Below, piece after piece: positions 9,608-28,157 of a stretch of DNA of 45,911 nt (positions within the stretch are counted from its first letter, which is position 1; each line of letters begins with the position of its first letter). The notes below the pieces were generated by a model that ran no database searches, was not told the DNA's origin, and saw only the letters and a list, made by a program, of their open reading frames with translations. The DNA comes from Chitinivibrionales bacterium. Lineage in GTDB: Bacteria; Fibrobacterota; Chitinivibrionia; Chitinivibrionales; WJKA01. The stretch spans positions 1 to 45,911 of the forward strand of contig WJLZ01000026.1 in the NCBI GenBank assembly GCA_014728215.1. The letters are read 5' to 3'. A program made the position numbers and the translations under genes.

Positions 9608-9655
9608 GAGTAAATTGGTTTTGGTTTTGGTTATTGTAGTACTATTGAGGAATCT

Positions 9656-10561: not shown

Positions 10562-10582
10562 ACGATAATAATATTTATAGGT

Positions 10583-11431
10583 ATGATTGAAAAAAATACT
10601 GGAAACAGACTTCTTATCAATATACTATTTAAATCATTTGTGATCGGTTTATCGCTTTTGGCAATAGTCCCGCTGATCTTGATTCTTTTTTATATTTTCA
10701 AACAGGGCATCGCCTCAGTAAACTGGGAGTTCCTTACAAGCATTCCCAAACCATTGGGTGAAGAGGGTGGTGGTATTGCCAATGGAATTGCAGGTACCTT
10801 CATACTGCTTCTTCTTGCATCGATACTCGCACTGCCCACGGGGATTATGGCCGGAATTTTCATGGCCGAAAACAACAAAAGTCCTCTTGCCTATGGGGTA
10901 AGAATTTGTGTTGAAATTCTCCATGGCATTCCATCCATTGTAATTGGGATTATCGCCTACCTATGGCTGGTCAAACCTATCGGAACCTTTTCAGCCTTTT
11001 CGGGGGGTGTAGCCCTTGCCGTAATAATGCTTCCTGTTATTGTCCGCACGGCCGAAGAAACGCTGAAACTGATACCAACATCGCTCAAAGAAGCTTCGTA
11101 TGGATTAGGCGCCCCCTATTATCTGACCGTTCTGAAAGTAATACTTCCCGCGGGAATGGGAGGAATTATCACCGGCGGCCTTCTGGGTATGGCCCGAATA
11201 GCCGGAGAAACCGCCCCATTGCTGTTTACCGCTTTCGGTAATTCATTCATGAGTACCGATCTATTTAAACCTATCAGCTCGCTTCCCTTAATCATATTTA
11301 ATTATGGTCGTTCTCCCTATGAGGAATGGCTTTCGCTTGCCTGGGGGGGATCGTTTATTCTTGTGGCCTTTGTCTTTATTGTAAATCTTACGGCAAAAGG
11401 AATCTCACACCGATGGAAAGTGACGTTTTAA
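10583..11431 (+). CDS. pstA: Phosphate ABC transporter permease PstA
   Basis: Second membrane subunit of the Pst importer, 282 residues, with about six membrane helices. The coupling loop reads EASYGLGAPYYLTVLKVILP and is followed by GMARIAGETAPLLFTAFGN, a PstA hallmark. It pairs with PstC to form the channel. Twenty-one bases separate it from pstC and 28 from phoB, consistent with one transcript. Confidence 0.93.
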   Translation: MIEKNTGNRLLINILFKSFVIGLSLLAIVPLILILFYIFKQGIASVNWEFLTSIPKPLGEEGGGIANGIAGTFILLLLASILALPTGIMAGIFMAENNKSPLAYGVRICVEILHGIPSIVIGIIAYLWLVKPIGTFSAFSGGVALAVIMLPVIVRTAEETLKLIPTSLKEASYGLGAPYYLTVLKVILPAGMGGIITGGLLGMARIAGETAPLLFTAFGNSFMSTDLFKPISSLPLIIFNYGRSPYEEWLSLAWGGSFILVAFVFIVNLTAKGISHRWKVTF

Positions 11432-11459: not shown

Positions 11460-12149
11460 ATGGCACGTGAGGAAATATTGATAGTCGAGGATGAGGAGGA
11501 TATTCTCGAACTTACCGTCTACAATTTATCCAAGGAAGGATATCGTCCTACCGGGGTAACCAGTGGCGAAGAAGCGCTTAAGAAAATCCGCGCAAAACAG
11601 CCGGATCTCATTCTTCTCGATCTGATGTTACCTGGGATGGATGGTCTTGAAGTTTCACGGATACTGAAAAAGGACCAGAAGACCCAGGGAGTGCCGTTGA
11701 TAATACTGACGGCAAAGGGTGAAGAAGCCGATATCGTATCCGGGCTTGAACTGGGAGCCGACGATTATATTGTAAAACCGTTCAGCCCCCGGGTCCTGGT
11801 TGCCCGGATCAGAGCGGTCCTGCGGAGAAAATCCCGTGAGTCGGTCGATGAAGATCAGCCTGTGACAATGGGAGAAATCCTGATCCATCCGGGAAGACAT
11901 GAGGTAACGATCAACGGACGGCGGGTCGATCTTACGTATACCGAATTCAAGGTACTTCATTTTTTAGCGAGTCGTCCGGGATGGGCATTTACCCGCTATC
12001 AGATTGTCGATGCCGTGCGGGGGGATAATTATCCGGTAACCGACAGAAGTGTTGATGTTTTAGTGGTGGGCCTCAGAAAAAAACTCGGTAATTTCAGCCA
12101 GTATATCGAAACTGTCCGCGGTGTTGGATACCGGTTCAAGGAAATGTGA
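11460..12149 (+). CDS. phoB: Phosphate regulon response regulator PhoB
   Basis: OmpR/PhoB-type two-component regulator, 229 residues. The receiver domain has the acidic pair EDEED near residue 10, the phosphorylation site D54 in LLDLMLPGMDG and the conserved Lys in VKPF. The C-terminal winged helix contains LTYTEFKVLHFLASRPGWAF and ends in a typical YRF strand. Phosphorylated PhoB binds 11-bp direct repeats; the (C/T)TAACA arrays found in six promoter regions of this window are its probable targets. It lies directly between pstA and phoR, so transporter and regulator are made together and probably self-induce. PhoB identity, rather than another OmpR-type regulator, rests on this context. Confidence 0.9.
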   Translation: MAREEILIVEDEEDILELTVYNLSKEGYRPTGVTSGEEALKKIRAKQPDLILLDLMLPGMDGLEVSRILKKDQKTQGVPLIILTAKGEEADIVSGLELGADDYIVKPFSPRVLVARIRAVLRRKSRESVDEDQPVTMGEILIHPGRHEVTINGRRVDLTYTEFKVLHFLASRPGWAFTRYQIVDAVRGDNYPVTDRSVDVLVVGLRKKLGNFSQYIETVRGVGYRFKEM

Positions 12150-12150
12150 G

Positions 12151-13953
12151 ATGCGAAGAAAACAGCTTTTCTGGCATATTTATCCGTCCTATCTGATCAT
12201 TACTTTTCTTGCTCTGGCGTTTATTACCCTCTATGCTGCAACAACATTCCGCTCCTTTCATCTCAATCAGACAGAGATGGACCTTAAAGCACGAGCACTG
12301 CTTGTTCAAGATGAGATCACAGAATATGTGAAAAATGATGCCTATGCTGAAATCGATAGTTTCTGTGTGGCAAAGGGGAAAAAGAGCCGGACCCGGATAA
12401 CCGTCATTCTTCCCAGCGGTCTGGTGGTTGGTGATTCGGAACGGGACCCCGAAACTATGGATAATCATGCCAACCGTCCCGAGATAATCACTGCCTTTGG
12501 CGGCCACAAGGGAATGGCAATCAGATTCAGCGCTACCCTTCAACGAAATTTAATGTATGTTGCCCTTCCTATATATATCAACAACAATATCAAAGCTGTT
12601 TTACGTACTTCTCTGCCCGTAGAATTCATCACAAAAGCCCTTCATGCAACCTTTTTCGGCGTTTTTTTGGCCAGTGTGATGATTGTCATCATAATAGGAC
12701 TGATCAGTGTTGTCATTTCACGCCGATTCAGCCGGCCTGTTGAAGAGTTGAAGCAGGGAGCAGAGAGATTTGCCTCCGGTGAATTGAAACAAAAACTTGC
12801 AGTGCCCAACACAGATGAACTGGGGAAACTCGCCGAAGCAATGAATACCATGGCGATACAACTCGACGAAAGAATTACCACAATTACCCGTCAACACAGC
12901 GAAAAAGAGGCGATTCTTTCGTGCATGGTCGAAGGAGTTATTGCTGTTACACACGATGAATATGTAATCAGCCTTAATGAGGCCGCGGCATCGATGCTTG
13001 ATATCGACCGGGACAATATCACAGGAAGACTCATTCAGGAAGCAATCAGAAACAGTGATATCCAGCGTTTTGTCAAAAGCGCTCTTCAGTTGGAACAGAT
13101 GCAGAATATTGAAGAAGAAATTGTGTTGATGTCTTCGGATAAAAAAGAGATGTTCATACAACTCCATGGAACAGTCCTTCACGGCAACAAGGAAAACACA
13201 ATCGGTGCACTGGTAGTACTCAACGATGTTACCAGAATGAAACGGCTCGAGAATATCAGAAAAGATTTTGTCGCTAATGTATCCCATGAGCTGAGAACTC
13301 CGCTTACTTCTATTCATGGTTTTGTTGAGACATTGCTGGGCGGCGGTGTGGATAATGATAAGGATCGAATGCGCTTCCTACACATCATTGCGACGCAGGT
13401 CGACCGGCTCAACTCAATTATCCAGGATTTATTGATTCTCTCAAAAATCGAAAAAGATGACGAAAAACAGGGACTCGAGCTTGAAGAGACTCATTTGACC
13501 CCGGTAATCAAAGAGGCGATTCTTGTATGCCAGAAAAAAGCCGATGATAAGAAAATCACCATAAATCTCGATTGCGGCAACTCCATTTCGGCACTGATCA
13601 ACCCCTTTCTGATCGAACAGGCGATTATTAATTTAATCGACAATGCAATCAAATACAGTGAAGAAGGCAAAGATATTACCGTTAAAGCTATTGCCGATAA
13701 GGAAGAGGTACGAATTGCTGTTGAGGACCAGGGTCATGGAATCGACCGGAAACACCTTGATCGTCTGTTCGAACGATTCTACCGGGTCGACAAAGCCCGC
13801 AGCCGAAAACTCGGCGGTACCGGACTCGGCCTGGCAATAGTAAAACATATCATTCTTGCCCATAAAGGAAATGTGAGTGTTGAAAGCAACATAGGCAAAG
13901 GTTCGATTTTTTCGCTCCACCTTGCCAAAGCTGCCAATAATACTGCATCCTGA
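12151..13953 (+). CDS. phoR: Phosphate regulon sensor histidine kinase PhoR
   Basis: Membrane sensor kinase, 600 residues from the ATG at 12151. I chose this start because AAGGA lies eight bases upstream and it follows the phoB stop by one base; an in-frame GTG at 12121 would overlap phoB by 29 bases. Domains are a first membrane helix (~8-30), a periplasmic region of ~130 residues, a second helix (~165-190), HAMP (SRPVEELKQGAERFASGEL), PAS, HisKA with H379 in NVSHELRTPLTS, and an ATPase domain (DQGHGID, GTGLGLAIVKHI). The periplasmic domain is larger than in E. coli PhoR, which has almost none. It should phosphorylate PhoB D54 and be held in check by PstSCAB/PhoU when phosphate is plentiful. 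Confidence 0.9.
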   Translation: MRRKQLFWHIYPSYLIITFLALAFITLYAATTFRSFHLNQTEMDLKARALLVQDEITEYVKNDAYAEIDSFCVAKGKKSRTRITVILPSGLVVGDSERDPETMDNHANRPEIITAFGGHKGMAIRFSATLQRNLMYVALPIYINNNIKAVLRTSLPVEFITKALHATFFGVFLASVMIVIIIGLISVVISRRFSRPVEELKQGAERFASGELKQKLAVPNTDELGKLAEAMNTMAIQLDERITTITRQHSEKEAILSCMVEGVIAVTHDEYVISLNEAAASMLDIDRDNITGRLIQEAIRNSDIQRFVKSALQLEQMQNIEEEIVLMSSDKKEMFIQLHGTVLHGNKENTIGALVVLNDVTRMKRLENIRKDFVANVSHELRTPLTSIHGFVETLLGGGVDNDKDRMRFLHIIATQVDRLNSIIQDLLILSKIEKDDEKQGLELEETHLTPVIKEAILVCQKKADDKKITINLDCGNSISALINPFLIEQAIINLIDNAIKYSEEGKDITVKAIADKEEVRIAVEDQGHGIDRKHLDRLFERFYRVDKARSRKLGGTGLGLAIVKHIILAHKGNVSVESNIGKGSIFSLHLAKAANNTAS

Positions 13954-14018
13954 CTGCTCCAGAGTGAGACTCATGTTTCTGAATTTGAGCAAATATGTAC
14001 AAACTGAATGTTTGGCTG

Positions 14019-14273: not shown

Positions 14274-17200
14274 GTGGCAAGACAATGCACCATAAACCGG
14301 GTGATAATATCACTTTCCATTTTTATTTTATTTCCGGTTACGGTATGGGCTCAAATAATTAAAGGCACTGTTGTTGATGTTGATGATCAGTCTCCCTGTG
14401 TCGCTGCATTTGTTTACCTTGAAGATACAGATTACTGGACCCATACCGATTTAAAGGGCAAATTCATTCTGGACAGTATTCAACCGGGCACCTATACGCT
14501 TGTAATTACTACCTCTGGATATAAAGAACATCGCATTGAAGATATTGTTGTTTCTCCCGGCGAAACAGAGCAGGATACCATACAGTTGCAGCCCAGGGGA
14601 ATAGCCACTCAAAACGGCGGATTTCTACATGGGAAAATTTCCAATGCCCAAACCGGCGATCCTGTTGAAAATGTAATGGTCTTTCTGGAAGGTACCGATT
14701 TTAAAACAACGACCGATTCGCTGGGCAAGTTCAGTTTTGCGGTGGTTCCATCGGGAACATATTCAATTATTGCCGGCCGGCGGGGGTTTGAATCGGCTTC
14801 GATAACCGATATCGAGGTTAAACCTAAAAAAGTAACTGAAAAAGTGATCGGCATAGGACCCCATCGCCGTCGATTCGGTGCATATGTGGAAGAAACCGAT
14901 ACGGAAAAAGGGTCCATATCCGGCACCGTTATCGAAATGGAAACCCGTCAACCTCTCGCTGCTGCAAATATCTATGTGAAAGGAACCCCGGTCTGGACTT
15001 ATACCGATATTGACGGCCGGTTTACCCTCCCCAAGGTGCCTGTTGGAAATCAAATCGTTACTATCGCTTTAACCGGGTACGATGATACCGAAATCAAGGA
15101 TGTCATGGTCCATAAAGACAGTACCACAAAGTTGACCATTTATCTTCGAAAAGAAGGTGGAAATCAAACGGCTGAAGACCTTGACAATATAAAATTCGCT
15201 TCCCTTGGCGGAAAAGTCACAGATGCAAAAACCGGTGAACCGCTTGCTAACGTGCCGGTGTTCTTTGAAGGAACCGATTTTAAAACTCAGAGCGATTCGA
15301 CAGGGAAATATGTTCTGGACAGTATCCCCGAAGGGTCCTATACGCTGATAAGCCTGTTGAAAGGATACGATGCCTATGCCGCTACCGGCATCGAGCTTGC
15401 GCCGGGTGAAGAAAAAGAGATGGGGATCGCACTTGAGCCCCGTCGTCTCAATGATGCCGATATGGATGCCTGGTTTTCCCGCCCGGGAACAATTACCGGA
15501 AGAATTGTCTCGATATATGATGATTCTCCACTGCAAGACGTTGTTATATTTCTCCGCGGCACCTCGCATATCGATACCACCGATGTCGAGGGTTTTTATA
15601 CGCTCGAGCAGGTTCCACCGACCGCCGGCTCGTATACGCTCTGTGGCTACAAAGCGGGGTCTGATACTTTATGCCGTCGCGATATCAATATTCTTCCCGA
15701 AGACATGAATGTTCAGAATTTCGCTGTGGAGCTTACCGGCTCAACCGATGAGCAGCAAACCGGTGAAAACCGGGGAACTCTGGTGGGTAAGGTTGTATCA
15801 AAAGAAAACGGCGAACCGGTTGTAGGGGCCAATGCCGTGCTTCAGACTACTCCCTATCGGGGAGTAACCGATTTTAAAGGCCTTTTCCGCATCACAGGAA
15901 TCAGACCGGGGAGCTATTCTCTGGTAATAAGCCAGGAAGGATTTGCGACCGTAACAATGCCCGAAATTACCATTGAACAGGGCAAAGAAAGGAAGATTAC
16001 TGTCGAGATGGAGAAATCGGATGTTACGGAAATGCAAAAAATGGTGGTAAAGAGTACTGCCGTGCGCACAACCGGCGCAGCCCTTCTCAAGGAACGGCAG
16101 ACCGCTATCAGCTTCACCGATGCAATCGGCGCCCAGGAAATATCAAGAACCGGGGCGAGTGATGCCGCCGATGCAATGAAAAGCGTTACGGGAGCGTCGG
16201 TGGTGGGAGGGAAATATGTCTTAATACGAGGACTCCCCGAACGGTACACCATAACGATGCTGAATGGCTCTCCGGTTCCCAGTCCCGACCCTGATAAAAA
16301 AGCTGTAAACATGGACCTTTTTCCTGCGGGAATGATCGAAAATATAACAACACATAAAACATTCACTCCTAATTTGCCCGGTAATTTTGCCGGTGGTGTT
16401 GTCGATATTCAGACTAAGCCGTTTCCTGATAAATTCATTCTTTCTGTAAGCGCTACGCTTGGTTATGACAATGGAACGACCTTTTCTGAGGAATTCCTTA
16501 CCTATGAGGGCGGTAAATATGACTGGCTGGGTATTGATGACGGCACTCGTGAATTGCCGGACCCATTTAATTCGTATACCAAAGATGAGCTTGATCAATA
16601 TACGGCCGCTTTCGATTACAATCTTGCAAGCAGCAAATACTATCCTCGCCTTGTGGATCCACATGACAAACTGGTCGATACCATACAGGTCATTAATAAT
16701 CTAGCAAAATCTCTTGATACCACCCTGACTCCTCACCTGGAACATGCCCCGTTTAATCAAAGCTATTCACTTTCAATAGGCAATACCTTCCAGGTACTCG
16801 ATCGTCCTCTTGGATTTATAATCGGCGCAAATTACGGAAACAGTTACGATATTTCAACAGATATGCCACAGAGGGAATACTTTTTTGAAAAATGGATAGA
16901 CACGGTGGATAATGAACCGGGTGGATTCCAGACTAATTATAAAATAGACGAAAGCGCCCATTCGATTTCCTGGGGAGCTTTGTGTAACGCCGCATATAAA
17001 ACCTCCCGTGATCATACACTCAATATTGATTATATGTATACCCGCAACTCCAGTGATCTCTCCAAATTTATCAGCGGCAAATTTGAATACTATAAAGACA
17101 ATGGAGATGAATACAAAGCATACCGGCTTCATTACATCGAACGATCACTTAATTACATTCAACCTGCAGGTGAGCACCGGATATGGTTTGGAAAGCAGCC

Positions 17201-18638
17201 ATTTGATATATCCTGGCGTTCATCATTTACAAAAAGTACCCAGAATGAACCCGACCTGCGCAATATCGGCTACTTTGCCAAATATATCTGGAACACCGAG
17301 GGTAGTAGAATTGTGGACACATCATATGTGCTTGAAGCCAATTTAGGCGAACCATCACACCAATGGCGTGAACTCAATGAAAAAGCTGCAACCGCAGGAG
17401 TGGATTTCAGTCTGCCCTTTTATCAATGGACCGGCGATTCGGCCACACTCTCATTCGGTGGTCTCTGGTTTGGAAAGGAAAGAGAACGGCGTCAGGAATA
17501 TCTCGAATATCAACTTCTCAAATACATCGGGAGAAACTCGGACATACCTCCCGATCAATATTTCCATCTCGACTCCATTGGCTTGAAAGAAGACACAACC
17601 TGGGGTGTTACATTTAAAACTTTCAGTAGTCAGGAAGCGCAATGGGATGGAAAAATAAACGTTTACAGTACCTATGGCATGTTTGAATTGCCGCTTATCA
17701 GCAGGCTTTCCTCAACTGCCGGTGTCAGATACGAAGTAACCGATATGGAAGGCGGGAGTATTTTTGAAGATTACAAGGAGGGTACTGAAGCACGGATGAA
17801 TGATCATGATATTCTTCCAGGCCTCTCATTCAATTACGAATTAAAGGAAAGCATGAATATCCGTTGTGCCTACGGAAGAACTCTTGTACGGCCGTCCTTG
17901 CGGGAAAAAGCTCCTTATAAAACCGAATCGTTTGCCGGAGGACCATCGTATCAGGGTAATCCCGACTTGAAACGTTCCCTGGTAGATAATGTTGACATAC
18001 GATGGGAATGGTTCATGAATCCCGGAGAATTGCTTACCGCCGGCGGTTTTTATAAAATCATCCGTAAACCGATTGAGTTGACGACCCTTGATGAAACCAA
18101 TGATATTTCTACTCACCGGAATACGGATACGGATGCAAATATTTTCGGCGTTGAATTTGAAGGAAGGAAAAACATTGGTGATTTTCAGTTGGCCGGCAAT
18201 CTGACATTAACCTATTCTATCGTTAAATTGAAAGATGACACTACCGGCCGTGGAACGAGCAAAAAAAGTGAAATATACTTCCCTAACGAACCGGACCATC
18301 GGCCGTTCCAGGGACAATCGCCTTATGTGGGTAATCTGTTTTTTGCCTATGATAACAGTGATATTGGTCTCAATCTGAATCTTTTATATAATGTTTTTGG
18401 TGAGCGACTTGGAGAATTAACAAAACCTACCGTGCCATGGATATGGGAGAAACCCCAGCATATGATTAATTTCACCGGAAACAAATCACTCCTGGATAAT
18501 TTCTCAATTAAAGCAAAAATCAAAAACATCTTAGGCGCAAAAAAGAAATTGGTTTATCATTATGATGATGAAGATTATTTAGTTGAAGAGGAAGAAATCG
18601 GCCGTACCTTTTACCTCGGTTTTAGTTATACATTTTAA
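14274..18638 (+). CDS. TonB-dependent outer-membrane receptor with six N-terminal carboxypeptidase-regulatory-like repeats
   Basis: Very large outer-membrane transporter of 1454 residues. Start is GTG with AAAGGAG upstream; a signal peptide ends near A26. Six tandem beta-sandwich repeats follow at about 28-108, 115-197, 212-294, 309-390, 404-487 and 502-584, each with the CarboxypepD_reg pattern (G.v.d...g.P...a.V.l.GT......TD..G.f.l..ip.G.Y.l....GY). A TonB-plug domain spans ~590-725, with RGLPERY at 652-658 and the segment PGNFAGGVVDIQTK at its end. The remaining ~730 residues are the 22-strand barrel, ending in the typical aromatic FSYTF. One repeat is usual; six is excessive. A Pho-box-like array and neighbouring pst genes suggest phosphate or a phosphorus compound as cargo; sequence alone cannot name it. 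Confidence 0.88.
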   Translation: MARQCTINRVIISLSIFILFPVTVWAQIIKGTVVDVDDQSPCVAAFVYLEDTDYWTHTDLKGKFILDSIQPGTYTLVITTSGYKEHRIEDIVVSPGETEQDTIQLQPRGIATQNGGFLHGKISNAQTGDPVENVMVFLEGTDFKTTTDSLGKFSFAVVPSGTYSIIAGRRGFESASITDIEVKPKKVTEKVIGIGPHRRRFGAYVEETDTEKGSISGTVIEMETRQPLAAANIYVKGTPVWTYTDIDGRFTLPKVPVGNQIVTIALTGYDDTEIKDVMVHKDSTTKLTIYLRKEGGNQTAEDLDNIKFASLGGKVTDAKTGEPLANVPVFFEGTDFKTQSDSTGKYVLDSIPEGSYTLISLLKGYDAYAATGIELAPGEEKEMGIALEPRRLNDADMDAWFSRPGTITGRIVSIYDDSPLQDVVIFLRGTSHIDTTDVEGFYTLEQVPPTAGSYTLCGYKAGSDTLCRRDINILPEDMNVQNFAVELTGSTDEQQTGENRGTLVGKVVSKENGEPVVGANAVLQTTPYRGVTDFKGLFRITGIRPGSYSLVISQEGFATVTMPEITIEQGKERKITVEMEKSDVTEMQKMVVKSTAVRTTGAALLKERQTAISFTDAIGAQEISRTGASDAADAMKSVTGASVVGGKYVLIRGLPERYTITMLNGSPVPSPDPDKKAVNMDLFPAGMIENITTHKTFTPNLPGNFAGGVVDIQTKPFPDKFILSVSATLGYDNGTTFSEEFLTYEGGKYDWLGIDDGTRELPDPFNSYTKDELDQYTAAFDYNLASSKYYPRLVDPHDKLVDTIQVINNLAKSLDTTLTPHLEHAPFNQSYSLSIGNTFQVLDRPLGFIIGANYGNSYDISTDMPQREYFFEKWIDTVDNEPGGFQTNYKIDESAHSISWGALCNAAYKTSRDHTLNIDYMYTRNSSDLSKFISGKFEYYKDNGDEYKAYRLHYIERSLNYIQPAGEHRIWFGKQPFDISWRSSFTKSTQNEPDLRNIGYFAKYIWNTEGSRIVDTSYVLEANLGEPSHQWRELNEKAATAGVDFSLPFYQWTGDSATLSFGGLWFGKERERRQEYLEYQLLKYIGRNSDIPPDQYFHLDSIGLKEDTTWGVTFKTFSSQEAQWDGKINVYSTYGMFELPLISRLSSTAGVRYEVTDMEGGSIFEDYKEGTEARMNDHDILPGLSFNYELKESMNIRCAYGRTLVRPSLREKAPYKTESFAGGPSYQGNPDLKRSLVDNVDIRWEWFMNPGELLTAGGFYKIIRKPIELTTLDETNDISTHRNTDTDANIFGVEFEGRKNIGDFQLAGNLTLTYSIVKLKDDTTGRGTSKKSEIYFPNEPDHRPFQGQSPYVGNLFFAYDNSDIGLNLNLLYNVFGERLGELTKPTVPWIWEKPQHMINFTGNKSLLDNFSIKAKIKNILGAKKKLVYHYDDEDYLVEEEEIGRTFYLGFSYTF

Positions 18639-18674
18639 TTACAGTTCAATTTCATCATAAAAAAGACCTGCCGG

Positions 18675-18713
18675 CTAACCACCCCCTAACCCCTCACAAA
18701 CACGTTAATAACA
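18675..18713 (+). promoter_or_regulatory. Pho-box-like array 1 (distal) upstream of beta-helix lipoprotein
   Basis: CTAACC (18675), CTAACC (18686), CAAACA (18697) and ATAACA (18708) are exactly 11 bases apart. The array begins 37 bases after the receptor stop, inside the 361-base gap 18639-18999, and is the first of two arrays there. Confidence 0.6.
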
Positions 18714-18769
18714 AATGCGGGCAGTATAAATTATTAGCATTGTATTAGCGTTTCAGTTTGGTTAATCAG

Positions 18770-18819
18770 ATAACACAATTCTAACATTACTTTCACGGAC
18801 CCCTAATATTCCTGTTAGA
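18770..18819 (+). promoter_or_regulatory. Pho-box-like array 2 (proximal) upstream of beta-helix lipoprotein
   Basis: ATAACA (18770), CTAACA (18781), TTCACG (18792, weak), CTAATA (18803) and GTTAGA (18814) continue at 11-base steps, and a TATACC -10 candidate starts one further step on, at 18825. It lies 95 bases after the first array. A GTAAGGAGG ribosome site precedes the ATG at 19000. Confidence 0.65.
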
Positions 18820-18999
18820 TTTTTTATACCCAAATGGAAATCAGATTAGAGCCACATTTAATAATAGTAATATTGAGGTTTTTAAAGCAGGAAAGGAGGC
18901 TGAAGAAGTTAGATTACGGGGTCATTGATTTTTCTTAGTTTTTAATTTGCATTACCTATGTAACACTTTTCAGTAAAATTTGTAAGGAGGATTTTTTTC

Positions 19000-20553
19000 A
19001 TGAGTAAAATGATTAACAAATACTCATATCTCACATTATGTGCTGCAATCACTGCAATATTTTCTTTGTTAATGCTTTCTGCAGGCTGCGAGGATGATGA
19101 CAGTCCGACAGCGGTAAAAGATACAGTACGAGATACTGCCCGCGACACAACAGTTGACACGGTAACGCAAACAGCGATGATTTATGCCCATGCAATTAAT
19201 TTCGATGATGCCAAAGGTAGTGCCGGTAACCTGGTGACTGATCATTATCTTAACGGCGATCTTAATATTGCATCATGTATTATCAACAGCATCGGCAATC
19301 CCGATCTTGAGGTAACTACCGCCGAACAGATCATCAAATTTTCGGGGGTCAGTGATACACTTCCGGGAACAATGACGCTTGGGCGGAAAGATTCTGTTGT
19401 CGCCAAAATGGACGCCAACAACTATTTCAACACCGATGCCGGCGTAACTCGCGACAATCTCCTTCCTACCGCCGGTGGAGCAGCATTTACTTCAGCCCGT
19501 CAGCCACTACCGACTGGTGACCCTTTCTTTGAAACGGCCGACTATATTGGAGCATTCAATGCGACAAACTGGATGGCCTGGACTTACTACAGCCAGGCTC
19601 AGGCAGGAGCAATCACCGATGACACAACGACAAAAGAGACTAAGGTTATCACCGACGACAGTGTTGCTACCGGTAAAGATCTCGTACTCTCAGCCGACAC
19701 GACATACATCCTCGACGGTTTTGTTTTTGTTGAAAGCGGTGCAGCGATCACCATTCAGCCTGGTACGGTTATTAAAGCAGAGCCGGGTGGTCAGCTTAAT
19801 GCAAGCGCGCTCATTATCTGCCGCGGTGGTAAAATCATTGCTCAGGGAACATCTGACGCCCCGATTATCATGACCGCAAAGCAGGACGATCTGAAATACC
19901 AGGATGACATCAATTCAACAGCTCGCGGTTTGTGGGGTGGTTTGATTGTGCTTGGAAGCGCTGTTACACAAAGAGCTGCCGGGGTTGAGCAGATCGAAGG
20001 TATTGATCCGAATGACACTCGCGGCGAATACGGTGGAACGGTCGATGATGATTCTTCCGGCGTGATCACCTACGTTTCAATCCGCTACGGTGGAACAAAC
20101 ATTGGTGAAGGTAACGAAATCAACGGTCTCACTATGGGTGGCGTTGGAAACAAAACTGTTATTCACAATGTTGAAGTATTCAACAATTCCGATGACGGCT
20201 TTGAATTTTTCGGCGGTGCAGTTAACACCAAACGTCTTTGCGCCATCGGTTGCGGCGACGATTCCTACGACTGGGATGAAGGCTTCCGCGGAAAAGGACA
20301 GTTCTGGGTTGTTGTCCAGTCCGACGATGCCGGTGACCGGGCTGCTGAAATGGATGGTTGTGCAAGCAATAACCGCGGTGACGTTACCAGATATTCGAAA
20401 CCGACTATCTACAACACGACCTTTATCGGAAGCGGCGCCGAATCGGGTAATGACGGTAACATGGCGATGAAGCTCCGTGAGGAAACCGGTGGTTACTATT
20501 ACAATTGTATTTTCACCGACTTTGCCGGTGCATTGAAAATCGTGAATCCGTAA
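19000..20553 (+). CDS. Beta-helix-type lipoprotein paired with TonB-dependent receptor (segments in permuted order)
   Basis: A 517-residue lipoprotein; the signal peptide ends in LSAGC, giving a lipidated Cys at residue 30, followed by a Thr/Asp-rich linker. Residues ~215-517 resemble a widespread family of right-handed beta-helix lipoproteins found beside TonB-dependent receptors in Bacteroidetes and proteobacteria: LDGFVFVESGAAITIQPGTV, GLWGGLIVLG, YVSIRYGGTNIGEGNEING and NSDDGFEFFGG. Residues ~65-205, with NGDLNIASCIINS and ETADYIGAFNATNWMAWTY, resemble what from memory is the C-terminal part of that family. The order therefore appears swapped. Its partner is probably the receptor upstream; a ligand-capturing surface role is inferred. 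It is strongly regulated-looking: two Pho-box-like arrays before it and a terminator after it. No enzymatic motif is visible. Confidence 0.72.
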   Translation: MSKMINKYSYLTLCAAITAIFSLLMLSAGCEDDDSPTAVKDTVRDTARDTTVDTVTQTAMIYAHAINFDDAKGSAGNLVTDHYLNGDLNIASCIINSIGNPDLEVTTAEQIIKFSGVSDTLPGTMTLGRKDSVVAKMDANNYFNTDAGVTRDNLLPTAGGAAFTSARQPLPTGDPFFETADYIGAFNATNWMAWTYYSQAQAGAITDDTTTKETKVITDDSVATGKDLVLSADTTYILDGFVFVESGAAITIQPGTVIKAEPGGQLNASALIICRGGKIIAQGTSDAPIIMTAKQDDLKYQDDINSTARGLWGGLIVLGSAVTQRAAGVEQIEGIDPNDTRGEYGGTVDDDSSGVITYVSIRYGGTNIGEGNEINGLTMGGVGNKTVIHNVEVFNNSDDGFEFFGGAVNTKRLCAIGCGDDSYDWDEGFRGKGQFWVVVQSDDAGDRAAEMDGCASNNRGDVTRYSKPTIYNTTFIGSGAESGNDGNMAMKLREETGGYYYNCIFTDFAGALKIVNP

Positions 20554-20579
20554 CTTTCGGTTTATATCGATTATTACAG

Positions 20580-20607
20580 GGCTTCCCTTTTTGGGGGAGC
20601 CTTTTTT
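20580..20607 (+). terminator. Intrinsic terminator after beta-helix lipoprotein gene
   Basis: GGCTTCCC (20580-20587) pairs with GGGGAGCC (20594-20601), with one G-U pair and a short T-rich loop, and six T residues follow at once. It lies 26 bases after the stop codon and separates this unit from the MORN-type gene. Confidence 0.85.
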
Positions 20608-20721
20608 ATATACTCATTTCAAGAGTGTAATAACGATTCCGCCAAAAAACTATTTTAAACAATTTCAGATACGCTCTAAACGAATTTCTTTGAATTCCCC
20701 AATCAAATACCAGTAAGCCTT

Positions 20722-21354
20722 ATGACAAAATTATTCAAAAAAGAAAATCTTGTAATTCTTTTCCCTGCAGTCATTCTCATGCTTTCGGCAGGATGCGGAA
20801 AACCTGAAATGGTCAGGGAAACCCGATATCCCAACGGACAACGACGCAAGCAATATACCCTTATCGTGAATCAGGACGGTGATACGGTCAAACAGGGCAA
20901 AGACCTGATGTGGTATGAAAACGGCAATCTCTATACAGAATCATATTTTGAAAACGGCGTTCAGCAGGGCAAACATACCGTATGGTTTGAAAACGGCAAC
21001 AAATGGTTTGAATGCCGTTACAAGGACAACAAACGAGACGGAGAATATCGGGAATGGCATAAAGACGGAAGCAAGCTTGCTGAATATGCCTATTCCAAAG
21101 GACTTCGTCAGGGACCATATATCGAATGGTACCCGAATGGACATAAGGCTTATGAATGTACCTTTGTTGATAATGAAAAAGAGGGGCCTGCAACCAAATG
21201 GTATAATACCGGCGCAAAAGAAAAGACCGGCGCCTATAAACGAGGAAGAAAACACGGCCTGTTTATCATATGGAATAAGGATGGGAGTGTAATATCCAAA
21301 CGCAGATTTGTTGATGGAAATGAAGTTCCTCTTGATAGTACTGTTGTCGAATAA
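20722..21354 (+). CDS. MORN-variant repeat lipoprotein
   Basis: A 210-residue protein with a lipoprotein signal (LMLSAGC, lipidated Cys near residue 26). The mature part is at least six tandem repeats of ~23 residues with the pattern WY.NG.......Y..G...G.y, as in WYENGNLYTESYFENGVQQG and WYPNGHKAYECTFVDNEKEG; this is the MORN_2 family. Such repeats form an elongated beta-sheet; known bacterial members are envelope proteins of unclear function. It lies between the terminator of the previous unit and the Pho-box-like array of the TonB operon and has no clear array of its own. Its position suggests an accessory envelope role in the phosphate island, but this is inference. Confidence 0.75.
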   Translation: MTKLFKKENLVILFPAVILMLSAGCGKPEMVRETRYPNGQRRKQYTLIVNQDGDTVKQGKDLMWYENGNLYTESYFENGVQQGKHTVWFENGNKWFECRYKDNKRDGEYREWHKDGSKLAEYAYSKGLRQGPYIEWYPNGHKAYECTFVDNEKEGPATKWYNTGAKEKTGAYKRGRKHGLFIIWNKDGSVISKRRFVDGNEVPLDSTVVE

Positions 21355-21372
21355 AAGCATGGTTATTAAAAA

Positions 21373-21411
21373 TAAACCCCACGCTAACAGAATCCTAACA
21401 AAACATTAACA
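21373..21411 (+). promoter_or_regulatory. Pho-box-like array, four 11-bp units, upstream of TonB-system operon
   Basis: TAAACC (21373), CTAACA (21384), CTAACA (21395) and TTAACA (21406) lie at exact 11-base steps, the cleanest copy of the motif in the window. A TATCTT -10 candidate is at 21432. The array is 125 bases before the first gene of the DUF3450-to-phoU run, and no other promoter-like array is seen before its end at 28157. Confidence 0.75.
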
Positions 21412-21536: not shown

Positions 21537-22397
21537 ATGAGATATGGAAGGGGCTGTCTCACCGGGATAGTGCTGGTCCTATTTTCCGGAATAATTATTC
21601 CCTCGGGGGCACAAGACTACAATATTGACGAAGAAATCAGCAGAATCAGAAAAGAGCTCAAACAGGTGCAGAACGAGCGGGAACGGGTAAAAAAAGAGAC
21701 CCGGAAGGATCGGAAAGATTTTGCCAAATATGTAGAGCGCCAGCAGAAACGGTTTTCTTCTATAAAAGCCGAAACCGACTCTATCAGAGCCGACATACGT
21801 GAAGCACAGGCAACAAGTGATTCTCTGGCAGCCCAATTAGCTTCGGTTCAGGCCTCCAAACGTCAGTACGAATTGCTCCAGGACCGGTTCAGAAATCGAT
21901 TGATAGAGGGATGCGACCGTTTTCTTACAATTTCCGATCACATGCCTCCCATGGCAAAAAAGACGCTGTCGCCGTCACTCTCCTACCTGCGCAGCGAAAT
22001 GGTATCAAAGGCGATCGATAATATTGAAGGTATCAACCGTCTGGCCCAGATTGTGAAAGACCTGAATGAAGCAACCATGGCGATCCAGATAATGCAGGGT
22101 CAGCCGCCGGTTACCGAGTTGCAGGGAATCACTCATTCACTACGAATTGGCGGAATATTCCAGGCTGCGGCCGATGCCAAGGAGACCTATGCTGCACAGT
22201 GGACCGGGTATGATGACGAGGGCAATCCTCAGTGGAAAGTGATTAAAGATCCCGAATTAGCCGCAAATATTCGTGAAGCTGTTAATATCCGTGAAGGCAA
22301 GGCATTGCCGGATTTTGTCGCCCTTCCTTTTGGAGAAATGAAGGCGCAGGATGTCCAGCAGCAGGCTGTTGTTGAAAATGAAGGAGAGGAGCAATGA
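21537..22397 (+). CDS. DUF3450-family periplasmic protein of a TtpC-type TonB system
   Basis: A 286-residue exported protein with a signal peptide ending near GAQ and a long coiled coil (~residues 30-115) rich in Glu, Lys and Arg. The C-terminal part (PSLSYLRSEM, GGIFQAAADAKETYAAQWTG) fits the DUF3450 family, known as the first gene of TonB2/TtpC operons in gammaproteobacteria. Role inferred: a periplasmic accessory that works with the TtpC protein. AAAAAGGAGC precedes the ATG. The next gene overlaps it by four bases (ATGA). A four-unit Pho-box-like array upstream suggests that the whole energiser is induced by phosphate starvation. Confidence 0.8.
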   Translation: MRYGRGCLTGIVLVLFSGIIIPSGAQDYNIDEEISRIRKELKQVQNERERVKKETRKDRKDFAKYVERQQKRFSSIKAETDSIRADIREAQATSDSLAAQLASVQASKRQYELLQDRFRNRLIEGCDRFLTISDHMPPMAKKTLSPSLSYLRSEMVSKAIDNIEGINRLAQIVKDLNEATMAIQIMQGQPPVTELQGITHSLRIGGIFQAAADAKETYAAQWTGYDDEGNPQWKVIKDPELAANIREAVNIREGKALPDFVALPFGEMKAQDVQQQAVVENEGEEQ

Positions 22398-23866
22398 AAA
22401 AATCGGCAGTAATTCTTATTATTATCAGCAGTACGGCGCTGGTATTTTCCCAGTTGTTTTCTTCCGGCGACAAACGTCAGCAATCAAAGGAAAAAGAATT
22501 AAATGTTCTCAAGAGTTACCTGAGTACGGCACGGGATTCGTTGCAGAATGAAATAGCAAACCGCTGGCGTCAGAAACAACGCTTTGTCGAGCAGCGTGAA
22601 GCCGATAAGGAGGAGTTGGGCCGCCTTCGGGAGAAACAGGAGCGCGCCCATGCCGACCTTTCTCGAATCAAAGAGGAAGTTTTTTCAAAAGAGCGCATTA
22701 TCGAAGATGAACAAAAGGCGCTCCAGGGAGAAAAGGACGAATGGCAGTTTGTTCATTCAACCGTCGGCGAGGTGCTGGAAAAAGAAGCTGAATTTATCAT
22801 GGAAACCTTTCCCCTGGACAGAGAAGAACGCAGGGAAGATCTCGAAGAAATTCGCCGGGACCGGAAAACTCACAGTAATCCGGCAAAAACCGTTGGCGAA
22901 TATGTTACCTATGCCGAACGATACCTGGAAAACGGCTTGCAGCTCTCAATTGAAAAAGAGACCGTCGTACCCGATGAAGGTGATGCGCAGCTTCTTACCT
23001 TTGCCCGATTCGGCAACGTGTGGGCCTATGGTATCAGCGAAAACAGCCGAATTTACTATATCCGTCAGACCGGTAATCTCGGCGCACAGCGTTTTGCCAT
23101 ACCGGAAATCGGAGAATCGGAAATTAAAGGCCATCTACTCCAGAAAATGCCACAATGGATCGAACAGCAATCCATTTCGGGAAATGTTTTAACCGATGTC
23201 ATGCAAAACGCTCAGACCAACGTAATTATTTCAGGCAAAGAGGTAAAAGCGACTGCCCATATTGTTAATTATATCAAAAAAGGCGGCGCCACCATGGTTC
23301 CGCTGCTGCTGCTTCCTTTATGGGCCCTTGTTCTCATTTTTATGAAACTGTTTCAGTTTCACAGAAAAGACAAGCGTAACAAGAAGCTCTCGGCCCAGGT
23401 GCTCGAAAATCTTGACAAAGGCGCTATTGAAAAAGCAAAGAGCATTGCCAAAAATCACAAGGGTGTTGTTGCCAGAATTGTCGGCACCTGTCTTGAACAT
23501 TCCAAATGGAAACGAAGTGCGGCCGAAAAGAAGGTGCGGGAAATCCTGATCGAAGAATCTCCCCAGTTGAACAAACATCTCAGTACGCTCGGGGTCATTG
23601 CCGGAGCTGCTCCTCTTCTTGGTCTTCTTGGGACAGTAACCGGTATGATTCATCTTTTTAAAGTAATTACCGATTATGGTACCGGTGATCCGAAAATACT
23701 TGCCGGCGGTATTTCCGAAGCACTCGTTACGACCCAGACCGGTCTGGCTATTGCGATCCCGGTTCTCCTGGTACATAATGCATTACGTAACAGAACCAAT
23801 AAGATCATGTCTGAAATGGAAAAAATGGCGATTCGTATTCTCAACCGTCTCTGGCCGGAGGATTAA
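22394..23866 (+). CDS. ttpC: TtpC-like protein: coiled coil fused to MotA/TolQ/ExbB channel domain
   Basis: A 490-residue protein. After a signal or anchor segment there is a long coiled coil (~residues 25-115) and a periplasmic domain (~120-290). The C-terminal ~200 residues are an ExbB/TolQ proton-channel domain with three membrane helices; the hallmark is PLLGLLGTVTGMIHLF, followed by TTQTGLAIAIPVLLVHNAL. This architecture matches TtpC, an extra ExbB-like subunit needed by TonB2 systems in Vibrio. It overlaps the DUF3450 gene by four bases and the exbB gene starts five bases after its stop. Its likely role is to link proton flow to the periplasmic part of the TonB complex. Confidence 0.82.
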   Translation: MKKSAVILIIISSTALVFSQLFSSGDKRQQSKEKELNVLKSYLSTARDSLQNEIANRWRQKQRFVEQREADKEELGRLREKQERAHADLSRIKEEVFSKERIIEDEQKALQGEKDEWQFVHSTVGEVLEKEAEFIMETFPLDREERREDLEEIRRDRKTHSNPAKTVGEYVTYAERYLENGLQLSIEKETVVPDEGDAQLLTFARFGNVWAYGISENSRIYYIRQTGNLGAQRFAIPEIGESEIKGHLLQKMPQWIEQQSISGNVLTDVMQNAQTNVIISGKEVKATAHIVNYIKKGGATMVPLLLLPLWALVLIFMKLFQFHRKDKRNKKLSAQVLENLDKGAIEKAKSIAKNHKGVVARIVGTCLEHSKWKRSAAEKKVREILIEESPQLNKHLSTLGVIAGAAPLLGLLGTVTGMIHLFKVITDYGTGDPKILAGGISEALVTTQTGLAIAIPVLLVHNALRNRTNKIMSEMEKMAIRILNRLWPED

Positions 23867-23871
23867 TCGTA

Positions 23872-24555
23872 ATGTATTTCCCCAATCCTTACCGGATTTT
23901 TATCGAGACCATTGTCCGGGGCGGTCCGTTGATCATGTTGGTCATATTCGGCGTCGCGCTTGTCGCATGGTATATCGGTTTTTCAAAACTGCTTTTCTTT
24001 ACCAGATTCAACAAAGCGAGAAAAGAATTCCTTCGTTCCGTCAACTCGCTGATTAAGGGAAATTCTCCAGAAAGAATCACTACCGGCTATGAAGCCTACG
24101 ATATGCTTTTGGCGCGCCTTGTTGATTGTGCAAAGAAAAAGTGCATCCTCTCCGACAAATCGTTCAAACAACTTTTCCGAGAATTCCTGATCGCCTCGGT
24201 GCCCGATCTGACCGGAGGATTTTCAACCATGAATACCTGGATTTCCGCCGCACCACTGTTGGGGTTGTTTGGAACGGTAACGGGTATGATAAAAACATTT
24301 CAGGTAATTACCTCTTTTGGCGTAGGCAATCCGGCACTTACCGCAGAAGGTATCAGCATCGCCCTGCGCACTACCCAGGCAGGACTGACCGTTGCATTTC
24401 CGGCAATGCTCCTGCATAATTATCTTTTTAACAGAAAAAATCTTATTGTCGGCAACGTGCTCAAAGACGGCGAAGATCTCATGACATCACTTAAATCATT
24501 CCCATCTTCCCCGCCTGCGGCACAACCCGAAAAGGAGAACAAGTCTGATGTTTGA
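23872..24555 (+). CDS. exbB: ExbB/TolQ-family proton channel protein
   Basis: Inner-membrane protein of 227 residues with three predicted membrane helices. PLLGLFGTVTGMIKTFQVI and TTQAGLTVAFPAMLLHNYLF are the conserved ExbB segments around the second and third helices. With ExbD it forms the proton channel that powers TonB. It is distinct from, and shorter than, the TtpC-like gene just upstream. Its 3' end overlaps exbD by eight bases, a sign of translational coupling. Confidence 0.88.
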   Translation: MYFPNPYRIFIETIVRGGPLIMLVIFGVALVAWYIGFSKLLFFTRFNKARKEFLRSVNSLIKGNSPERITTGYEAYDMLLARLVDCAKKKCILSDKSFKQLFREFLIASVPDLTGGFSTMNTWISAAPLLGLFGTVTGMIKTFQVITSFGVGNPALTAEGISIALRTTQAGLTVAFPAMLLHNYLFNRKNLIVGNVLKDGEDLMTSLKSFPSSPPAAQPEKENKSDV

Positions 24556-24958
24556 GGATTATGGATTAGTCCATTCCAATGATGATTCGGCCGAAATCAA
24601 CATGGGACCGTTGATCGATATGGTATTCATTCTCCTGATTTTCTTTGTGATTACCACCAATTTCAACCGTCAAACAGGCGTTGATGTCTCCAAACCCAAA
24701 GCTCAGTCGGCCATAAGCCAGGGACAGAAGACAATGATGATCGGTGTTACTCGTGAAGGAACGGTCCATGTGTTCGGCCGTCAGGTAAGTATCGACCGTC
24801 TTCAGACTCTTGTGGCTCAGGAAGTATCCAAACGCCCTGATATGTCGGTGGTAATTATTGCCGATGAGGCTGCTGCTATCGGTAAGGCGGTCCAGGTCAT
24901 GGACCAATGTGCCTTAGCAGGAGCAAGTAAAGTATCTCTGGCGGCGGATAAGGAATAG
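24548..24958 (+). CDS. exbD: ExbD/TolR-family biopolymer transport protein
   Basis: A 136-residue protein with one N-terminal membrane helix and a periplasmic domain. The helix reads PLIDMVFILLIFFVI; D24 corresponds to the proton-carrying Asp of ExbD/TolR. The periplasmic part (VTREGTVHVFG, DRLQTLVAQEVSKRPDMSVVI) follows the family fold. It starts inside the exbB gene, with AAGGAG ten bases before the ATG. It works with ExbB to energise TonB. Confidence 0.9.
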   Translation: MFEDYGLVHSNDDSAEINMGPLIDMVFILLIFFVITTNFNRQTGVDVSKPKAQSAISQGQKTMMIGVTREGTVHVFGRQVSIDRLQTLVAQEVSKRPDMSVVIIADEAAAIGKAVQVMDQCALAGASKVSLAADKE

Positions 24959-24962
24959 TATT

Positions 24963-25595
24963 GTGCTCGCAAAGTTTTCAAAAGATATAGGATCACCAGT
25001 AATAAAATTTATCGCTGTGCTGGCAATAAACTTTATGTTATTTGTCACCATACCGATCATTCAGGACTACATGCAGTTTCTCAAAGAAGAGAAACTTCCC
25101 TCCCGAACCCAAAACCGGATCGTTGCGGAAATTGTGCAACCCAAGAAAAAGGAAGAGAAAAAGCAGAAACAGCAGCGCATTCGTAAAGTCAGGTCGGGTG
25201 AGGCAAAGGAGGGCGGTAAGTCGATGAAATTCAAATTCTCACCTGATCTTGGCGTTGAAGGTGGTGAAGGTGTTGCTGTCCAGACTCAGGGAGACATGGA
25301 AGCGGTTGTTTTTGAAGAGGGCGAAACCGACGAGCCTTTTGTGGTGATCAACCGTCAGCCACCCCCCTATCCCGACAGGGCCAGGGAATTGGGAATTGAA
25401 GGCGCACTCGAATTACTCTTTGTTATCGGTGTTGACGGAAAAGTACATGACCTTGAAATTGTCCGTTCACCGCATCCGACAATTTCAAAGGAAGCCCGTA
25501 ATGCGGTTTCCAAGTGGAAATTTAAACCGGCAAAAAACAAAGGCGTTCCTGTGAAAGTCCGTGTTCGCCAGGTATTTGAATACAAACTCGATTGA
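24963..25595 (+). CDS. tonB: TonB-family energy transducer
   Basis: A 210-residue protein with an N-terminal membrane anchor (~15-35), a short charged linker rich in Lys, Glu and Gln, and a C-terminal TonB domain (~125-210): PPYPDRARELGIEGALELLFVI, then VDGKV and AVSKWKFKPAKNKG. The linker lacks the long Pro-rich stretch of classical TonB, as is usual for TonB2-type proteins. It contacts the TonB box or plug of the receptor and transmits energy. Start is GTG at 24963 with AAGGA eight bases upstream, four bases after the exbD stop. The dedicated receptor is probably the one at 14274. Confidence 0.88.
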   Translation: MLAKFSKDIGSPVIKFIAVLAINFMLFVTIPIIQDYMQFLKEEKLPSRTQNRIVAEIVQPKKKEEKKQKQQRIRKVRSGEAKEGGKSMKFKFSPDLGVEGGEGVAVQTQGDMEAVVFEEGETDEPFVVINRQPPPYPDRARELGIEGALELLFVIGVDGKVHDLEIVRSPHPTISKEARNAVSKWKFKPAKNKGVPVKVRVRQVFEYKLD

Positions 25596-25602
25596 TTATA
25601 CT

Positions 25603-26637
25603 ATGACTATACCACGCGCTCAACATCCCGGAAAGCAGGCATCCGCTGCAGCAAAACTGCACTATGTTTCGTCGTGGGCAGCGGCGAACAAAACCTTTGT
25701 CATTCTTTTCCTGCTTTTTATTCCCCTCAGCGCAGGAGTTTTGGATTCTGCAAATAGCTTATACTCCAACGGCAAAGTAAACGAATCAATCAAGCTTTAT
25801 AAAAAAGCCGCCCTTGCCGGTGAAAATCCTGCGCTCTGTTACTTTAATCTCGGCAATGCCTATTTTCAGCTTGACAGTCTTCCCCAGAGTATTGTCTATT
25901 ACAAAGCAGCGCTTGTGTATGCTCCGGAATTTTTCAGGGGATATCTCAATCTGGCAATCACCTATTTCTCGTTAGAGGATGTGGGTTCGTGTATTGCCAC
26001 GGTTCACCGGGCACTGGAACTCGAACCCGGCCATACCAAAGCCATGTTGATTCTTGCGGCCTCATATCGTAAAGCAGGCGCCCACCCTCAGGCGATTGCT
26101 ACTTTCGAGCATCTCTCGGAGCTTGAGCCTGAAATGGATGAGCCTTTTATCGCTCTGGCCGAAATGTATCGGGAACTCGATGATAATAAGGAAGCAATCA
26201 AATGGCTCATTCGTTACCCCGAATCGGGAAAAAATAAACAATATGTGTACGCACTTCTTGCAGATATTTACGAAAAAGAGGAAGATTTCTCCAGGGCCCT
26301 TTACTATCTCAAAGAATCGTTCAAGCTCAACAAGAAAAACAAATGGACCTATTATCGCATAGTACGCATGCTCGAAAAAATGGGCAATGATTTGGTTGCT
26401 TTAGAAGAAACTAAAAAAGGGCTGGAGATTTTTCCCGACTTTGCAGACCTTGCACTTCTTGGCGGTAATCTTGCATTTAAGCACGAAAAATATAATGAAG
26501 CCGAGCGTTTATATATCATTGCCCGCGACAACGGCAGTCCCGGTGCTGTTGTAGGACTTGAAAATATCCGCATTGTCCGCAAGATGGCCGACCAGGAGAA
26601 CAGGTTTGGTGAGGCAACGACCCAATCCGCCGAATAA
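25603..26637 (+). CDS. TPR-repeat protein of the TonB operon
   Basis: A 344-residue protein with an N-terminal hydrophobic segment (TFVILFLLFIPLSAG; signal or anchor) followed by about eight to nine tetratricopeptide repeats covering ~50-330, for example FNLGNAYFQLDSLPQSIVYYKAAL and LNLAITYFSLEDVGSCI. I use the ATG at 25603; an in-frame GTG at 25561 would overlap tonB and spoil the signal-like N-terminus. A TPR protein is the usual last gene of DUF3450-TtpC-ExbB-ExbD-TonB clusters and is thought to serve as a periplasmic scaffold. It is followed after 77 bases by pstB. Confidence 0.8.
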   Translation: MTIPRAQHPGKQASAAAKLHYVSSWAAANKTFVILFLLFIPLSAGVLDSANSLYSNGKVNESIKLYKKAALAGENPALCYFNLGNAYFQLDSLPQSIVYYKAALVYAPEFFRGYLNLAITYFSLEDVGSCIATVHRALELEPGHTKAMLILAASYRKAGAHPQAIATFEHLSELEPEMDEPFIALAEMYRELDDNKEAIKWLIRYPESGKNKQYVYALLADIYEKEEDFSRALYYLKESFKLNKKNKWTYYRIVRMLEKMGNDLVALEETKKGLEIFPDFADLALLGGNLAFKHEKYNEAERLYIIARDNGSPGAVVGLENIRIVRKMADQENRFGEATTQSAE

Positions 26638-26713: not shown

Positions 26714-27484
26714 ATGCAACCCGATCAGATAGTGAATCCTAAAATACGAATTGAGCGCCTCAATTTTTTTTACGGCAAATTGCAGGCGTTGTTCAGTGTT
26801 TCCTTTGCAATAGCGCCGCAAAAGGTCACTGCCCTGATTGGTCCCTCAGGATGCGGAAAGACCACATTTCTCCGCACCTTGAACCGCATGAATGATATAA
26901 TAGAGAATACTCATATTGACGGTAAGGTTTTTGTCGATGATCTGGATATTTATAAAGAAATTGATGTCGTCTCGCTGCGGAAACACATTGGAATGGTATT
27001 TCAAAAATCCAACCCCTTTCCCAAATCAGTATTCGAAAATATTGCATTCGGTCCCCGTATCTATGGTGTAAAGAATCGCGGTAAGCTGTCCGAAATTGTT
27101 CATCGGAGTCTCAATCGAGCCGGATTATGGGATGAAGTAAAAGATCGCCTGCATGAGAGTGCATTCAGTTTATCGGGAGGACAACAGCAGCGGCTCTGTA
27201 TTGCCCGCGCTCTTGCCGTGGATCCGGAAATTCTTCTCATGGATGAACCGGCGTCGGCCCTCGACCCGAAATCGACGGCGCGTATTGAAGACCTTATCAG
27301 TGAACTCCGGGAAGATTATACCATTGTGATTGTAACACACAACATGCAGCAGGCCTCACGTGTTTCCGATTACACCGCTTTTTTCTATGAGGGCAGGCTT
27401 GTCGAATTTGGTCCTACCGACCGCATGTTTACTCATCCTGAAGAAAAGCAGACCGAAGATTATTTAACCGGCCGATTTGGATAA
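26714..27484 (+). CDS. pstB: Phosphate ABC transporter ATP-binding protein PstB
   Basis: Cytoplasmic ATPase of the Pst importer, 256 residues. Walker A is GPSGCGKTT, the Q-loop lies in [18 protein letters not shown] (a PstB-specific stretch), the signature is LSGGQQQR, Walker B is [13 protein letters not shown] and the switch His is in IVTHNMQQ. It should assemble with PstC and PstA, whose genes are 16 kb upstream, on the same strand. The 77-base gap from the TPR gene has no visible Pho box, so it may be read from the TonB operon promoter. It overlaps or abuts phoU. Confidence 0.95.
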
Positions 27485-27494
27485 GGAGCCTGCT

Positions 27495-28157
27495 ATGTCA
27501 AAACATCTGCAGAACGAAATCGAAAAACTGCAAAAAACAATTCTCGCTCTCTGTACCATGGTTGAAGAGCAGCTTGCAGCCGCACTCAAATCAGTTATTG
27601 ACAAAGACGATGACCTCGCAACCCTGGTGATCTCCAAAGATAAAGCAGTCGACAATACCGAAATCGATGTTGAGGAAGAATGTCTGAAAATTCTGGCGCT
27701 CCATCAGCCGGTAGCAGTCGATCTTCGATTTATTATCGCGGCACTGAAAATCAATAATGATCTGGAACGTATCGGTGATCTGGCCGTGAATATCGCCGAG
27801 CGGGGTCGGAGTATAGCTCTGAATGGTTTTCCTCTCCCCGACTTCGATTTCAACCGAATGTTCGATAAAGCCATTTCCATGCTGAAAAAAAGCATTGATG
27901 CACTCATTAACTGGGATGTCGATCTGGCCGTGGCGGTATGTGCATCGGATGATGAAATTGATGAGCTTAACCGCACAATGTTTTCACATTTTAAAGAAAC
28001 GGTCTGCCAAAAGCCCGGTCTATGCGATGCCATGCTCGATTATCTCTCCGTATCGCGTTATCTCGAACGAGTCGCCGATCATGCGACGAATGTGGCCGAA
28101 GATGTTATGTATATGATCGAAGGCGATATCGTTCGGCACGGCAAAAAGGAAAGCTGA
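27495..28157 (+). CDS. phoU: Phosphate signalling protein PhoU
   Basis: Canonical PhoU, 220 residues, with two three-helix repeats. The metal-binding signatures are LKINNDLERIGDLAVNIAER and SRYLERVADHATNVAED. It links PstB activity to PhoR, keeping the Pho regulon off when phosphate is sufficient. The ATG at 27495 is preceded by AAGGAG at six bases and follows the pstB stop by ten; an in-frame TTG at 27477 would lie inside pstB and is unlikely. Together with pstB it closes the island. The gap 28158-28311 shows only a weak inverted repeat (ATTTCC/GGAAAT at 28170-28187). Confidence 0.94.
   Translation: MSKHLQNEIEKLQKTILALCTMVEEQLAAALKSVIDKDDDLATLVISKDKAVDNTEIDVEEECLKILALHQPVAVDLRFIIAALKINNDLERIGDLAVNIAERGRSIALNGFPLPDFDFNRMFDKAISMLKKSIDALINWDVDLAVAVCASDDEIDELNRTMFSHFKETVCQKPGLCDAMLDYLSVSRYLERVADHATNVAEDVMYMIEGDIVRHGKKES

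Follow-up and report, generated by a model that had tools for sequence, protein, structure and literature searches.

ElpS (CC0170) of Caulobacter crescentus is an outer-membrane lipoprotein made in phosphate starvation and encoded beside a TonB-dependent receptor, in the locus order elpS-cc0171-gsp; ElpS itself showed no phosphatase activity (PMC2996285). Among the phosphate-starvation proteins FI-FIII of Flavobacterium johnsoniae, FII (Fjoh_0546) is a pectin-lyase-like lipoprotein whose gene lies in the phoBR operon and adjoins a TonB transporter, and which is strongly induced without phosphate, when it is among the main proteins made (PMC8115612). The Vibrio TonB2 system consists of TtpB/TtpC/ExbB/ExbD/TonB/TtpD, where the DUF3450 protein is TtpB2 and the TPR protein is TtpD2 (PMC6957404). 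Here we describe a gene at positions 19000-20553 of the 45,911-nucleotide contig WJLZ01000026.1 of a Chitinivibrionales bacterium (assembly GCA_014728215.1), a contig that we call the window. By gene order, fold type and homologues, its product resembles the ElpS/FII-like phosphate-starvation type, with a lipoprotein signal and an adjacent TonB-dependent receptor, but it departs from the helix-tail order usual in the ElpS/FII-like homologues that we have seen. The order of its segments marks the gene as a naturally occurring circular permutant of the canonical lipoprotein, and as such a new form of a family that is known but has been poorly described.

We refer to the window's own genome as G000, to a second species of the genus as G001, and to a sister genus as G002. 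A six-frame search covered 61 related genomes, and hidden Markov models (HMMs) of the helix and the tail were built here from family sequences found in related genomes. The G002 orthologue (L037, an open reading frame of 523 residues) has the same gene neighbours as the window gene and reads lipobox, helix, then tail; its helix spans 92-381 and its tail 399-520 of the frame. In the window protein the HMM matches cover residues 67-197 (tail) and 217-508 (helix), after subtraction of 12 residues upstream of the ATG; the overall layout is tail (~61-197), linker and beta-helix (~217-517). A segment search against G002 recovers both pieces in swapped order, the helix with E 2.6e-137 and about 70-72% identity (query 205-514), the tail with E 5.1e-32 and about 51-52% identity (query 63-200).

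When L037 is written twice, the window protein aligns to it in one run, from ~residue 67 to 514, with a score of 1415, as opposed to 1122 for linear L037 and a maximum of 71 for shuffled sequences; the window tail alone scores 317 versus a shuffled maximum of 56. The new ends of the window protein correspond to one helix/tail boundary loop of L037, which reads KI-SSGSLSLVGV-INFDD where the window protein ends in KIVNP and its tail begins AMIYAHAINFDD. The initial annotation, made from the window alone, had proposed two circularly permuted segments (tail-like at ~65-205, helix at ~215-517) in a protein that stops where the tail would continue, and the swapped order and the doubled alignment bear it out at the level of sequence, with segment limits very close to those of the HMMs. 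Neither of the two results that the annotation had named as refuting it was obtained: outside the genus the segments run the other way round, and the N-terminal part of the window protein does match the C-terminal part of homologues. That a signal peptide and a terminator frame the gene also fits, given a lipobox with Cys30, which we called by eye, and a terminator-like hairpin at 20578-20603; L037 and the G001 protein (L036) have a similar acidic start after the lipobox. The canonical helix-tail order of G002 is found in G007 as well, and the genes of G012 and G039 are tandem, with the order helix-tail-helix. Scans of the window protein, its two pieces and 18 relatives against Pfam and NCBIfam gave nothing significant, and the window profile had no match among PDB sequences.

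The genome is fragmented into 229 contigs, of which the window is one, and in such a setting a chimera, misjoin or other contig artefact could arise. However, the initial annotation had suggested looking for the same order in relatives, and the homologue in G001 has it: the protein aligns in one piece over residues 1-517 at 81% identity, and the DNA match on contig WJKA01000641 (~75% identity) spans the whole gene unbroken, with identical junctions, an intact reading frame and signal peptide, and neighbours whose order is kept (63-93% identity). An assembly error is therefore unlikely, and we give it almost no weight. Another idea is that the gene is degenerating and the order of its parts no longer matters, as might be read from a tail that evolves faster than the helix. 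Yet the frame is open in both species and the DYxGAF and NW..W motifs are kept in the permuted gene. For the two segments, window versus G001, the nonsynonymous differences (pN) are 0.17 and 0.06 versus synonymous differences (pS) of 0.75 and 0.64, where synonymous divergence (dS) is near saturation, such that the ratio of nonsynonymous to synonymous divergence (dN/dS) is indicative and only its direction counts. By this comparison, purifying selection acts on tail and helix alike; decay is scarcely credible, and the permuted gene is most likely functional.

The helix and tail trees agree in placing the window gene and L036 as sister of L037, with fork supports of 100/99 for the tail and 89/74 for the helix. 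Because both trees place the two permuted genes beside G002, both halves descend, on this phylogenetic evidence, from a single canonical gene that an ancestor carried at this locus. The permuted order is nested among canonical ones, and the trees show the tail-first order to be derived, with shared descent of both halves. Could the N-terminal tail instead have been taken from another family member, with the loss of the gene's own? The family has paralogues, several of them in G002 and another one starting on contig C39 of G000, and the tail is more diverged from G002 than the helix (52% vs. 72% identity). But the window tail falls beside the tail of the orthologue (100/99), just as the helices do in their own tree. 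Similarity at the DNA level is still seen in both pieces, and in every pair that we compared the tail changes faster than the helix. We regard such shuffling as improbable. Measured by tip lengths, the tail changes ~3.7x as fast as the helix in the two permuted species vs. ~1.2x in the canonical orthologue; with few sequences, this is only a hint of altered constraint.

Permutation by duplication predicts tandem intermediates (PMC3320104). Between the TonB receptor and ttpB-tonB, G002 has a canonical single gene, G039 a tandem gene (flanked by the receptor and ttpB-tonB-TPR), and G000 and G001 the permuted gene; the G012 tandem gene also adjoins a receptor. Single, tandem and permuted versions at one locus fit that prediction. 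The ancestral module would be H-T'-M behind a lipoprotein signal, where H is the helix, T' a further coil, and M the DYxGAF...NWxxGW motif. In the ancestor of the genus this module was probably duplicated in tandem, as H-T'-M-H-T'-M, and the first helix and last tail would then have been lost to leave signal-T'-M-linker-H, with the new protein ends in a loop between two strands. A circular permutant that arose via tandem duplication and works as a phosphate-starvation surface lipoprotein is the best explanation overall, and we hold it to be very probable.

Several observations weigh against this explanation. A search for scars (HMMs, blastn, repeats) found no remnant of the lost helix upstream and no remnant of the tail downstream. 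None would be expected if the event is old; still, the gene may instead have arisen by fission-fusion or a cut-and-paste move. The AlphaFold2 (AF2) models have modest confidence, with a predicted local distance difference test (pLDDT) of 74.5 for the window protein and 73.7 for L037, and a predicted template modelling score (pTM) of 0.78 each. A Foldseek search of the PDB returns mostly right-handed beta-helix proteins, none with E <0.001. And the likeness to ElpS and FII comes from gene order, fold type and homologues, not from direct sequence comparison.

Beta-helices are open solenoids with their ends at opposite poles (PMC2894822), and because of this the permutation is surprising; we found no precedent for a circularly permuted beta-helix in the open-access literature. 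In the AF2 model of the window protein, confidence in the relocated tail is about the same as in the remainder of the chain. The tail may still cap the same end of the helix in three dimensions, as in the canonical form. Alternatively, the sequence history could be the one just described and only the fold differ: M and T' would pack on the helix that follows them in tandem arrays, the tail would be an N-terminal and not a C-terminal cap, and the window protein would be one cut of such an array, with nothing closing into a circle. Tandem arrays are common in the family and the length of the joint matches (19 residues from tail to helix in the window protein vs. 16-20 in tandem arrays). Genes that begin with M look natural under this arrangement, with a helix after M and a last tail that lacks it, and in an open solenoid the return of the tail to its old place is less obvious (PMC2894822). 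On the other hand, most genes, all single-unit canonical ones among them, have M at the end of the module with no helix after it, and M must therefore work without a following helix. We take such a change of phase, without permutation in three dimensions, as a serious possibility, though less likely than not.

How common are the different orders? Our sample comprises 68 complete, non-redundant genes in which a tail can be detected, and is enriched in tandem genes since part of it was chosen by a tail-helix joint search; 61 of the genes are helix-first, 5 last-motif-first and 2 whole-tail-first. The last two are the window gene and its G001 counterpart, both of one genus. A tail-to-helix joint occurs in 4 of 168 Fibrobacterota genomes, permuted in G000 and G001 and tandem in G012 and G039. 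In the third register, FF..DYxGAF..NWxxGW comes straight after the signal peptide and the final tail lacks that motif; the five genes of this kind are on the Bacteroidota side, one with a single helix unit (L100) and four with two units each (L038, L084, L086, L090). The register may have had more than one origin, because in the helix tree L038 falls with L100 and L084 elsewhere. All three rotations of the module exist as gene orders: H-T'-M, M-H-T' and T'-M-H. It is conceivable, and we propose it tentatively, that H-T'-M is a cyclic module in which M closes the otherwise open beta-helix by packing back near its start, and in which ends are possible at any of the three joints. The family is found in 196 of the 296 sampled genomes of one phylum, and no Pfam or NCBIfam model matched it.

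Genes in G287, G621 and G515 that appear permuted by their coordinates were rejected as tandem genes cut by contig ends. The two units of L084:406-3354 are nearly identical, linker included, which suggests a recent duplication or gene conversion. The tandem gene L025:55-2985 (G052) combines helix domains with a divergent tail that the tail HMM missed. The second family member of the window's own genome (L002, G000:C39:2845-3067) shows its start, in canonical order with the helix right after the signal peptide, and is cut by the contig end.

Table 1. Features of the window (positions on WJLZ01000026.1) and, in the last two rows, motif-first genes elsewhere in the family.
Feature	Position	Strand	Basis
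pstS, pstC, pstA, phosphate ATP-binding cassette transporter	8564..11431	+	model matches
phoB-like response regulator and phoR/pnpS-like histidine kinase	11460..13953	+	best matches, just under equivalog cut-offs
TonB-dependent receptor with CarboxypepD_reg domains, partner of the lipoprotein gene	14274..18638	+	domain scan, synteny
Strong ribosome-binding site AAGGAGGA	18984..18991	+	read from sequence
Gene of the circularly permuted beta-helix lipoprotein, 517 residues	19000..20553	+	order tail-linker-helix
Signal peptide and lipobox LMLSAGC (residues 24-30), Cys30 followed by acidic EDDD	19000..19089	+	sequence
Asp/Thr/Val-rich spacer, probably flexible	19090..19179	+	sequence; pLDDT <50 over residues 23-62
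T' part of tail (further coil, INFDD...NGDLNI...), C-terminal in canonical relatives	19180..19515	+	tail HMM, doubled-sequence alignment
M motif of tail (DPFFETADYIGAFNATNWMAW), C-terminal in canonical relatives	19516..19590	+	tail HMM, motif comparison
Linker of 19 residues, tail to helix	19591..19647	+	HMM boundaries
Right-handed beta-helix domain (helix HMM 1-291), N-terminal in canonical relatives	19648..20550	+	segment search, HMM, AF2, Foldseek
New C-terminus (KIVNP, stop) at helix-to-tail loop of L037	20536..20553	+	doubled-sequence alignment
Terminator-like hairpin, 11-bp stem and T run	20578..20603	+	sequence
MORN-repeat lipoprotein	20722..21354	+	domain scan
TonB2-like genes: DUF3450 (ttpB-like), ttpC/ExbB-like, exbB, exbD, tonB, TPR (ttpD-like)	21537..26637	+	
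pstB and phoU	26714..28157	+	model matches
Third-register (motif-first) genes	L038:7791-10934; L084:406-3354; L086:403-3354		
Third-register (motif-first) genes	L090 376-3354; L100 1189-3126	minus	

The surroundings of the gene (Table 1) read pstS-pstC-pstA-phoB-phoR-TonB receptor-lipoprotein-MORN lipoprotein-DUF3450-ttpC-exbB-exbD-tonB-TPR-pstB-phoU. Positions 8564-28157 thus hold a complete outer-to-inner-membrane phosphate cluster, where pst/pho genes enclose the receptor, two lipoproteins and a TonB2-like system. Across the family, a receptor lies within ~10 kb of the lipoprotein homologue in 31 of the 32 loci examined, not all of them independent. In Indioceanicola (L181) the order is homologue, receptor, type II secretion system (T2SS) genes, and on a Pseudoalteromonas plasmid (L183:2440-13309) homologue and receptor directly follow DUF3450-ExbB-ExbB-ExbD-TonB-TPR, the window's own gene set. 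The lipoprotein would be exported and lipidated, and its probable place is the cell surface. There it would act together with the TonB-dependent receptor encoded next to it, with energy from the cluster's TonB2-like complex. From the cluster and the published relatives, it probably binds a phosphorus compound or presents it to the receptor, and phosphate would then enter via PstSCAB.

One would not expect a circular permutation to arise naturally in an open solenoid, given how far apart the ends of a beta-helix lie; here the rearrangement is natural, and the protein apparently survived it. Single, tandem and permuted forms at an orthologous locus within one bacterial order are rarely so clear. 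For a module that is common, phosphate-linked and without a Pfam or NCBIfam model, knowing the real repeat boundary would aid both annotation and structure solving.

Compared with ElpS, the window gene also has a receptor beside it, and the Indioceanicola homologue sits in an ElpS-type locus (homologue-receptor-gsp); the window copy differs in its rotated domain order and in belonging to a pst/pho/TonB2-like cluster without T2SS genes. Like FII, the window lipoprotein stands beside phoBR-type genes and a TonB-dependent receptor, but it is permuted and lies next to a TonB2-like system. The gene kinds found 3' of it are those of Vibrio TonB2, including DUF3450 and TPR; the Vibrio system serves iron, whereas that of the window is inside a phosphate cluster. 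The tandem arrays of Bacteroidota and Fibrobacterota (L039, L045, L176) share H, T', M and a 16-20-residue joint with the window gene, and differ from it in having 2-4 complete units that start with H. The saposin/swaposin and DNA methyltransferase permutants (PMC3320104) offer a likeness in their route, duplication with tandem intermediates, but their folds are compact, whereas the window protein is predicted to be an open beta-helix solenoid.
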